A DNA stretch of 36,726 bases, from contig JAUWUU010000004.1 of NCBI GenBank assembly GCA_030617765.1, positions 1 to 36,726 of the forward strand, read 5' to 3'. The notes below the pieces were generated by a model, which did not search any database, had not been told where the DNA came from, and saw only the letters and a list, made by a program, of their open reading frames with translations. The stretch's first letter is position 1, and each line of letters opens with the position of its first letter. This document shows, one piece after another, positions 29,341 to 32,476 of the stretch. Origin of the DNA: Flavobacteriia bacterium. Lineage in GTDB: Bacteria > Bacteroidota > Bacteroidia > Flavobacteriales > Flavobacteriaceae. The translations under genes and the position numbers were made by a program.

Positions 29341-30384
29341 ATGAATAAATTAAGAAAAATATTATACCCTCTTTCTATCCTTTACGGTGAAATAACCGAC
29401 ATGAGAAATAAGGCTTATGATAAAAACATATTACCCTCTTCTACTTTTGATCTACCTGTAATTGCAGTAGGCAATCTAAGTACTGGAGGTACTGGAAAAA
29501 CACCACAGGTAGAATACTTAATTCACCTCTTAAAGGATGATTATAAAGTTGCTGTATTAAGTAGAGGTTATAAACGTAAAAGCAAAGGGTTTCAAATTGC
29601 CGATAAAAAATCTACAGCTGTACAAATTGGAGATGAACCACTACAATATTATCGGAAATTTAAAAATATTATCGTTGCTGTTGATACTGACAGAGTTAAT
29701 GGTATCAATCAACTACAAAATCTAGAAACTCCACCAGAACTTATACTGTTGGATGATGCTTTTCAACATCGTAAAGTAAAAGCAGGTTTAAATGTTCTAC
29801 TTACTACATATGAAAAATTATATGTTGACGATTCAGTATTACCTTCAGGTGATCTACGTGAAAAAATTTCGGGTGCCAGTAGAGCGGAGATCATTATTGT
29901 AACAAAATGCAAAGAACAATTATCAGAACAAGAACAATTTAAAATTTCACAAAAATTAGAACCTGAATTGAATCAAACTGTTTTCTTTTCAGAGATCGTT
30001 TACGAAGACAAGATCAAATCGAAAAATAATGAGATAAAGTTTGATGAACTACACAACTTTGAAGTTATATTGGTGACAGGAATTGCAAGACCAGAGCCAC
30101 TAATAGATTATTTAAATGATCATAAAATAAAATATAAGCATCTTAAATTCGCTGATCATCATAATTTTACAAAAAATGAAATTGATAAAATTGAGCGTGA
30201 ATTTTCAAAAATATCAAATAATAAAAAGATAATACTTACAACTGAAAAAGATTTTGTCAGAACTTTTGAAGACATCAATAATAATGTATACTATATACCA
30301 ATTCTAACAAAATTTATTTCAAATGAAAAAGATTTTAATAAAATTATAATCAATTATGTACAACAAAATTCAAGAAACAGTTAA
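29341..30384 (+). CDS. lpxK: Tetraacyldisaccharide 4'-kinase
   Basis: LPVIAVGNLSTGGTGKTPQVEYLI, VLSRGYKRKSKGF, IGDEPLQY, LILLDDAFQHRKV, TTEKDFVR. Confidence 0.95.
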   Translation: MNKLRKILYPLSILYGEITDMRNKAYDKNILPSSTFDLPVIAVGNLSTGGTGKTPQVEYLIHLLKDDYKVAVLSRGYKRKSKGFQIADKKSTAVQIGDEPLQYYRKFKNIIVAVDTDRVNGINQLQNLETPPELILLDDAFQHRKVKAGLNVLLTTYEKLYVDDSVLPSGDLREKISGASRAEIIIVTKCKEQLSEQEQFKISQKLEPELNQTVFFSEIVYEDKIKSKNNEIKFDELHNFEVILVTGIARPEPLIDYLNDHKIKYKHLKFADHHNFTKNEIDKIEREFSKISNNKKIILTTEKDFVRTFEDINNNVYYIPILTKFISNEKDFNKIIINYVQQNSRNS

Positions 30385-31171
30385 ATTTTTAAAAGATAAA
30401 GGTATAAACTCACCAGATTTCGGTATAGTTTTAGGTACCGGTTTGGGAAGTTTGGTTTCTATCATCAATATCGAAATTGAAATACCTTATAGTGAAATTC
30501 CAAATTTTCCGGTTTCAACAGTTCAAGGACATTCAGGCAAACTAATTTATGGTGAATTAGGCAGAAAAAAAATATTGGCACTTCAGGGAAGGTTTCATTA
30601 TTATGAAGGTTGGTCAATGCAGCAAGCTACTTTTCCTATCAGAGTAATGAAATATCTGGGAATTGAAAATTTAATTGTTTCAAATGCTTCCGGCGGTGTG
30701 AATTCAAATTTTGAAGTAGGTGACATAATGCTGATCGATGATCATATCAATATGATGCCAGAGCATCCTTTAAGAGGTGAAAATGATGATAGGTTTGGCG
30801 ATCGGTTTGTTGATATGCATGAACCTTATGACCTAAAGATGCTGTCAAAAATGGAATTGATCGCTAAAAAGAATAATATCAAGGTTCACAAAGGGGTATA
30901 TTTAGCATTACAGGGGCCAACTTTTGAGACACCTGCTGAATACAGAATGGTCAGAATAATTGGTGCTGACGCCGTTGGAATGAGTACAGTACCTGAAGTT
31001 ATTGTGGCAAAACATATGAAAATGAAATGCCTTGGAATTTCTGTAATTACTGATCTAGGAACTGAAGGACATATAGAAGAGGTTTCACATAAAGCAGTAC
31101 AAAGTGCTGCAAAACTAGCCGAAAAAGGAGTTTGTAAACTGGTAGAACAATTTATTTTACTTCATCAATGA
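30356..31171 (+). CDS. punA: Purine nucleoside phosphorylase
   Basis: GIVLGTGLGSLV, VQGHSGKLIYG, LQGRFHYYEGWSMQQATFPIRVMK, NASGGVN, GPTFETPAEYRM, AVGMSTVPEVIVAKHM. Start overlaps the lpxK end. Confidence 0.95.
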   Translation: MYNKIQETVKFLKDKGINSPDFGIVLGTGLGSLVSIINIEIEIPYSEIPNFPVSTVQGHSGKLIYGELGRKKILALQGRFHYYEGWSMQQATFPIRVMKYLGIENLIVSNASGGVNSNFEVGDIMLIDDHINMMPEHPLRGENDDRFGDRFVDMHEPYDLKMLSKMELIAKKNNIKVHKGVYLALQGPTFETPAEYRMVRIIGADAVGMSTVPEVIVAKHMKMKCLGISVITDLGTEGHIEEVSHKAVQSAAKLAEKGVCKLVEQFILLHQ

Positions 31172-31183
31172 TTTCCTAAAATC

Positions 31184-31325
31184 GAAGACATCCGCAATTG
31201 CGGATGTCTTTTAACTTACTAACTCAAAATTAATTATAATGAAAACAAAATTAGTGGGGAATTTTGTATTTCATTACTTATATAGCAAATTCCGTGCCAT
31301 AATATTATAAATTACTTAATTTTTT
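31184..31325 (+). repeat. Intergenic tandem element, copy 1 (hairpin + conserved tail + ATG micro-ORF)
   Basis: GAAGACATCCGCAATTGCGGATGTCTTT then aacttactaactcaaaattaattataATGaaaacaaaatta; shared with copy 2. Confidence 0.88.
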
Positions 31326-31398
31326 TGAAAATTGTTTAGCCTTTTTTAGCTTGGTTGTTTTATTGATTTTAAAATAATAATTTATACTCTAAAAAATA

Positions 31399-31545
31399 GA
31401 AAACATCCGCAGTTGCGGATGTTTTCTTAAACTTACTAACTCAAAATTAATTATAATGAAAACAAAATTAATGAGAAATTCTGCTTTTCATTAATAATAT
31501 AGCAAATATCATGCCGACAAATTAAAATTGTATTAATTTTTTGTT
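31399..31545 (+). repeat. Intergenic tandem element, copy 2
   Basis: GAAAACATCCGCAGTTGCGGATGTTTTC then acttactaactcaaaattaattataATGaaaacaaaatta; offset 215-217 bp from copy 1. Confidence 0.88.
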
Positions 31546-31609: not shown

Positions 31610-32476
31610 TTAGGTTAAATGCTTATGAGCTCGATAAGATGAACGCACTAAAGCACCACTTTCTACATGCCTAAAACCTAATTTCAGACCAATATCTTCA
31701 TACTTCTTAAATTGTTCAGGAGTAATAAATTCCTTAACAGGTAAATGTTTTTTTGATGGTTGTAAATATTGTCCAATCGTAATGATATTAACTTTTGCTT
31801 TTCTTAGATCGTGAAGTGTTTCTATTACTTCTTCTTCATTTTCTCCTAAACCAAGCATAATACCAGATTTAGTTCTCTTTTGACCACTTTCTTTGATATA
31901 CTGTAATACTTCTAGGCTTCGATCATATTTTGCCTGTATCCTTACCTCTCTGGTCAGTCTGCGTACTGTTTCTAAATTATGTGAAATAATCTCAGGAGCA
32001 ACATCAATAAGTCGGTCAATATTTCGATGAATTCCTCTAAAATCCGGTATTAGTGTTTCAAGTGTTGTGTTAGGATTCGTTCTTCGAATAGCTTTAACTG
32101 TTTCTGCCCAAATAATTGATCCGCCATCTTTAAGGTCATCTCTATCTACTGAAGTAATTACTGCGTGTTTAATTTTCATCAGCTGAATAGAACGGGCTAC
32201 TTTTTCAGGTTCATCCCATTCTACACTATCAGGTTTGCCGGTTTTAACACCACAAAATCCACATGAACGAGTGCATATATTACCTAATATCATAAAAGTT
32301 GCGGTACCTTCTCCCCAACATTCACCCATATTTGGACAACTACCACTTGTACAAATAGTATTAAGACCGTATTTATCAACGATACTTCTTAATTGCGTGT
32401 ACTTTTTTCCTACAGGAAGTTTTACACGTAGCCATTCAGGTTTTTTAAATGGTAAAATTACTGATTCTTCTGACAT
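31610..32476 (-). CDS. lipA: Lipoyl synthase
   Basis: CTSGSCPNMGECWGEGTATFMILGNICTRSCGFCGVKTGKP; DRDDLKDGG; LGLGENEEEVIETL. Confidence 0.96.
   Translation of the reverse strand: MSEESVILPFKKPEWLRVKLPVGKKYTQLRSIVDKYGLNTICTSGSCPNMGECWGEGTATFMILGNICTRSCGFCGVKTGKPDSVEWDEPEKVARSIQLMKIKHAVITSVDRDDLKDGGSIIWAETVKAIRRTNPNTTLETLIPDFRGIHRNIDRLIDVAPEIISHNLETVRRLTREVRIQAKYDRSLEVLQYIKESGQKRTKSGIMLGLGENEEEVIETLHDLRKAKVNIITIGQYLQPSKKHLPVKEFITPEQFKKYEDIGLKLGFRHVESGALVRSSYRAHKHLT

Follow-up and report, generated by a model that had tools for sequence, protein, structure and literature searches.

The two tandem repeats between punA and lipA are small non-coding RNA genes on the minus strand, each with a predicted transcript of about 95 nt. 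They lie in a contig of a Flavobacteriia bacterium, of which a stretch of 36,726 nt (the window) was analysed. We propose, with a probability of about 0.7, that they specify a trans-acting sRNA under sigma-54 control, which would lower SusC/TonB-receptor translation under envelope or protein-folding stress. The family, its strand, its sigma-54 promoters, terminators and conserved hairpin, and its complementarity to susC starts, are supported by sequence comparison. This would be a new sRNA family with predicted outer-membrane protein targets, an unusual promoter class and the anatomy of an antisense mimic.

Two predicted RNA genes on the minus strand

The flanking genes punA (purine nucleoside phosphorylase, 30356-31171, plus strand) and lipA (lipoyl synthase, 31610-32476, minus strand) were identified as open reading frames with synteny in relatives. 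They are convergent, and lipA is the upstream same-strand neighbour of the sRNAs. In the direction of transcription each unit has a sigma-54 promoter, after which come a 5' hairpin whose loop is rich in C, the linker ATTAATTTTGAGTTAGTAAG of 20 nt and, as intrinsic terminator, a GC-rich hairpin with a T-run. In copy 1 the promoter TATGGCACGGAATTTGCT (31284-31301, minus strand; -24 GG, -12 GC) scored 33 of 34. The predicted transcript of ~95 nt covers 31178-31274, its start (~31273-31275) being placed from the promoter and its end set at the terminator. Its 5' hairpin UAAUGAAAUACAAAAUU[CCCCACU]AAUUUUGUUUUCAUUA (31237-31276) matched the covariance model of the family with 91.1 bits and is followed by the near-invariant linker or seed AUUAAUUUUGAGUUAGUAAG (31215-31234), which is complementary to susC start regions. 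The terminator hairpin found by stem search (31185-31210) is followed by CGAUUUU. Copy 2, also on the minus strand, displayed the same arrangement, with the promoter TCGGCATGATATTTGCT at 31501-31517 (31.2 of 34), a predicted transcript of ~95-100 nt at 31393-31491 placed in the same way, a 5' hairpin with the loop UUUCUCAUU at 31454-31493 (83.6 bits), a linker identical to that of copy 1 on inspection at 31432-31451, and a terminator hairpin from the stem search at 31399-31426, followed by UAUUUU. The terminator of copy 1 lies 13 nt beyond the punA stop and has T-runs on both strands; it may also end punA on the plus strand.

Much of what the earlier note described in this interval was recovered. 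Its two hairpins were found by inspection at 31184-31211 and 31399-31426, together with the compensatory changes from G31187:C31208 to A31402:T31423 and from G31184:T31211 to G31399:C31426. The period of 215-217 bp was reproduced by a repeat search (a 33-nt block 88% identical at a spacing of 215 and a 129-nt block 79% identical at 217), and the tail acttactaactcaaaattaattataatgaaaacaaaatta, described as invariant, is the same in copies 1 and 2. The unit of ~140 bp had been drawn too short, because the promoter lies at its far end on the minus strand; the functional part extends to ~31301 in copy 1 and ~31517 in copy 2. The order of hairpin and then tail was inverted, the hairpin being the minus-strand terminator at the 3' end of the RNA, and the tail with its ATG being the complement of the minus-strand 5' hairpin and linker. 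The suggestion of a duplicated regulatory RNA was right in kind but not in strand, order of parts or promoter, and an attenuator of lipA or punA was rejected together with the plus-strand reading by the strand, promoter and ORF tests. The terminator idea applies to the hairpin, which would end the sRNA and possibly punA in copy 1, but not to the unit as a terminator repeat only. As for the relic of a duplicated gene start, the plus strand is indeed similar to one of susC (ATAATGAAAACAAA(A/G)TTA..GTGG..AATTTTG), a likeness that follows from the minus-strand RNA being the antisense of such a start and therefore points to an antisense RNA instead of a relic.

The minus-strand RNAs folded at z = -6.8 (copy 1) and z = -7.5 (copy 2) relative to dinucleotide shuffles. 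Together with the recurrence of the unit in dozens of genomes, this indicates that the repeat is not a chance structure.

Family members, promoters and conserved structure

Covariance model R1 was built from the 5' hairpin and linker only, which left promoter and terminator free as independent tests. BLAST with the interval detected homologous units in related genomes, again between punA and lipA and in 1-3 tandem copies, and a pattern scan of named genomes yielded 38 stretches. In these stretches, the window and two other loci, R1 identified at least 55 full-length copies from dozens of genomes, with a covarying 5' hairpin. The linker was almost unchanged across the family copies, a near-invariance to be read with the fact that the linker 20-mer was itself the pattern of the genome scan. 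Two carriers, Lutimonas halocynthiae and L. saemankumensis, are cultured species, and each has three tandem copies; the remaining ones are mostly uncultured Flavobacteriaceae. The majority of copies lie between lipA and punA with synteny kept, while a second locus adjoins tag and is also found in the present genome (contig C111). This third copy (G000:C111:6971-7037; L149:2972-3038) has a near-perfect sigma-54 site and is flanked by tag (DNA-3-methyladenine glycosylase I-like) and an SRPBCC-like gene, as in L230, L231 and L241. Some tag-locus copies contain an antisense frame MKTKFWGIL.., near the SusC signal peptide MKTKFSGIL.

Outside the Lutimonas group an exact search for the linker core yielded next to nothing (6 of 400 family genomes, 3 of 237 genera), and no strong covariance model match was found in the sampled Flavobacteriaceae outside that group. 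Weak model matches across Flavobacteriaceae (E > 0.001) represented susC starts, unrelated terminators or chance and were excluded from the family. Rfam 15 gave no family at the gathering score, only sub-threshold matches, and no earlier description of such an RNA in this lineage was found in the literature. Minimal versions with the linker and then a terminator, lacking the 5' hairpin, were observed at L259:3187-3237 and L235:733-784 (both from one genome, CSMAG_2938), L244:3905-3960 and L263:1928-1957. In the L259, L235 and L244 versions the linker immediately follows a TAnnTTTG box (TATCTTTG, TATATTTG). These versions look like FopS-style sRNAs of ~55-60 nt under sigmaA, and may represent an ancestral or a housekeeping form of the RNA.

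In 41 of the 55 copies a sigma-54 site reached a score of 25 of 34 or more, in every case at a distance of 50-56 nt upstream of the anchor TTTTGAGTTA. After shuffling, the upstream regions contained on average 0.44 sites at any position and 0.04 at the fixed spacing, with a maximum of 1. The promoters have the form GG-N10-G, with GG, A and TTG invariant. When sites were ranked over a ~0.97 Mb sample of the genome plus the C111 stretch, the two best-scoring ones belonged to sRNA copies, copy 1 of the window being second-highest, and other top sites were located upstream of groES and a thioredoxin. Sigma-54 (SM4) promoters of F. psychrophilum precede groES, a thioredoxin-family gene, dnaK, lon, clpB, htpG and skp (PMC9723704). 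The present genome encodes rpoN on contig C50 (PF04552 match) and AAA+ activators on C35 and C11 (two good PF00158 matches), of which the C35 protein is of the response-regulator type on a reading of its sequence beyond the Pfam match. The gene order on C11 (L108:12520-19070) is miaB, sigma-54 activator, lptE-like, secG, groES and groEL, with a sigma-54 site before groES, the names beyond the Pfam matches being our assignment from the sequences. This order points to an activator that may run a folding/envelope regulon.

The 14 copies without a sigma-54 site often include the punA-proximal one in Lutimonas, and several of them contain a TAnnTTTG-like box near the position expected for sigmaA. 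Copies of this kind on the punA side of the array, often with a TAnnTTTG-like box, were seen at L236:2201, L246:5731, L257:4201, L249:1915, L250:5203, L254:392 and L262:5917. Arrays of the Lutimonas type may thus combine stress-driven and basal copies.

A terminator hairpin was detected in 53 of the 54 copies with enough sequence, with 41 distinct stems. Of the 16 pairs that form the 5' hairpin, 12 showed changes on both sides among 52 sequences; cells with such changes numbered 28, compared with 9.8 +/- 2.6 after shuffling, and pairing fell from 85% to 56-57% when the partners were shifted by one base, although the alignment was fitted to the model and the absolute covariation numbers lean towards it. 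G-U pairs occupied 100 cells of this hairpin and A-C pairs, which correspond to G-U on the opposite strand, 29. This excess is indicative of selection on a minus-strand RNA, but fitting the model to that strand itself favours G-U pairs, and the comparison is supporting evidence only; the strand argument is carried by promoter and terminator alone. A small A/U hairpin suggested in the linker by alignment folding showed zero covariation and was dropped.

Complementarity to susC starts and alternative explanations

Several of the weak model matches lay opposite SusC/RagA gene starts, for example ACTAACTCAAAATAGATAAGTATGAAGACAAAGTTTCGTGGAATTTTGACG (L074), and the linker was therefore compared with start regions. 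Against SusC-type starts in carrier genomes the mean duplex energy was -15.8 kcal/mol, compared with -9.3 +/- 0.84 for dinucleotide-shuffled linkers (z -7.8); these energies ignore accessibility, A/U-rich pairing easily produces false positives, and the 28 SusC targets are not independent, as the genes are partly related. Thirty SusC starts from eight genera without a model match gave a weak signal (mean -11.4, z -3.3), and the mean against all own starts was -10.05. Among 809 ORF starts in the ~0.97 Mb sample, the best duplex of the linker was with the only full-length susC of the genome; a likely H+-pyrophosphatase ranked second and a SusC-like receptor third. For a Lutimonas susC the predicted duplex reached -46 kcal/mol over -34 to +34, running through the 5' hairpin into the coding region. 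Several carrier susC starts paired poorly (-9 to -12). The C-rich loop alone was not enriched at gene starts in RNAduplex comparisons; it sits in a stable hairpin and must open to pair. In the genome, which is 90% complete, neither Hfq nor RRM_1 (PF00076; a Bacteroides control was detected) was found, and there is thus no known chaperone to name.

A sigma-54-dependent sRNA might instead have other main targets or another mode, such as titration of a protein through the linker or action on a wide class of leaders with a ACTAACTCAAA-type 5'UTR. A near-invariant linker would fit a protein site as well as a broad set of targets, other starts of high rank belong to non-receptors such as the rank 2 pyrophosphatase, and TTACTAACTCAAAATTAAT 5'UTRs also occur in other flavobacteria (L039). 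We consider this unlikely, since secreted proteins overall showed only a small shift (-10.6 vs -9.95, against -15.8 for SusC) and a protein site leaves the extended complementarity to the Lutimonas susC unexplained.

The remaining explanations dispense with a minus-strand RNA. That the unit lacks any RNA function and is the decayed remnant of a duplicated susC start is suggested by the susC-like leader, ATG and signal-peptide start on the plus strand (L074, L079, L093, L223), and the minus-strand gene may well have arisen by inverted duplication of a susC start. A functionless relic is nevertheless very improbable, because the open frame is not conserved whereas dozens of genomes retain the promoter spacing, the G-U-biased pairing of the hairpin and the terminator, and syntenic upkeep in 1-3 copies would be unexpected. 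The same plus-strand ATG opens 12-48 codons in many copies and could indicate genes for short peptides or leader peptides (MKTKLVGNF...). Lengths and frames vary, however, with the ATG absent in 9 of 55 copies and the others stopping at scattered points, and this 'start' lies directly behind the terminator hairpin, which leaves the peptide explanation with the slightest probability of all. Tandem copies, and window terminator hairpins with T-runs on both strands, would also fit a mobile or REP-like repeat serving as punA terminator. Few copies per genome at fixed loci, a linker core restricted to a few of 237 genera and a fixed-spacing promoter that such a repeat leaves unexplained make this highly doubtful as well.

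Proposed mechanism and related systems

For the sigma-54-controlled antisense sRNA we infer transcription, pairing in vivo, repression by that pairing and a stress signal as follows. Sigma-54 RNA polymerase with an enhancer-binding activator would transcribe ~95 nt, ending at the unit's own terminator. The RNA would display the C-rich loop and the near-invariant A/U-rich linker. Both are predicted to be antisense to the mRNAs of SusC/RagA-type TonB-dependent receptors, from the 5' leader across the start codon into the first codons. On susC mRNAs, pairing would mask the start codon together with the ribosome-binding region and so block translation initiation. Once folding or envelope stress is sensed, bulky outer-membrane transporters would no longer be made, and the several copies would provide dose. 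A stress role is likely because flavobacterial sigma-54 drives a chaperone and envelope-quality-control regulon.

Qrr, GlmY and CrcZ of Proteobacteria are sRNA genes driven by sigma-54 and an activator, and Qrr is multi-copy. The present family differs from them in phylum, targets and structure, and in its tandem array between punA and lipA. DonS-type RNAs of Bacteroides PULs are antisense to susC-type starts and are encoded opposite their target, whereas the present RNA is encoded away from it and would act in trans if the prediction holds. The nearest studied example is FopS of B. thetaiotaomicron, whose pairing at the start codon represses translation of susC (PMC11697453). Both are multi-copy paralogous intergenic sRNAs of Bacteroidota (here 1-3 tandem copies plus other loci). 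FopS pairs around susC-type start codons, with a proposed control of outer-membrane glycan transporters (PMC11697453), and a similar pairing is predicted for the present RNA. FopS RNAs are described as 65-70 nt long, with a 5' seed, sigmaABfr (TAnnTTTG) promoters and the RRM_1 protein RbpB as partner (PMC11697453); the RNA reported here is set apart from that description by its ~95 nt, extra 5' hairpin and sigma-54 promoters and by the lack of a detected RRM_1 protein. The nearest parallel in logic is offered by the sigmaE-dependent MicA/RybB-type sRNAs of enterobacteria, part of an alternative-sigma stress regulon that shuts off outer-membrane protein synthesis (PMC1804206). MicA and RybB use sigmaE and Hfq, while the present RNA has sigma-54 promoters, no Hfq found, an unrelated sequence and a much longer predicted pairing. 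Rfp36 of Flavobacterium psychrophilum OSU THCO2-90, a putative regulatory RNA with a mapped start site at 840245 and a predicted sigma-54 (SM4) promoter (PMC9723704), is alike in being a putative RNA with such a promoter, a comparison made by description only.

For the Bacteroidota more widely, we see an even chance that this family is an RNA arm of the sigma-54 envelope/folding-stress response, in which a multi-copy antisense mimic of susC starts would shut down SusC/TonB-receptor synthesis. Sigma-54 copies would serve under stress and one sigmaA-type Lutimonas copy would serve basal control, in convergence with sigmaE-MicA/RybB.

SusC-type receptors, through which marine Bacteroidota import algal polysaccharides, are major proteins of their outer membrane. 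No account was found in the literature of how their synthesis is cut under envelope stress in these bacteria. The family offers a defined RNA with its promoter class and predicted targets, as well as Lutimonas as a cultured test organism, and thereby makes it possible to test directly whether transporter synthesis is tied to the chaperone regulon of sigma-54. These results suggest that sRNA control of susC starts reaches beyond gut Bacteroides.
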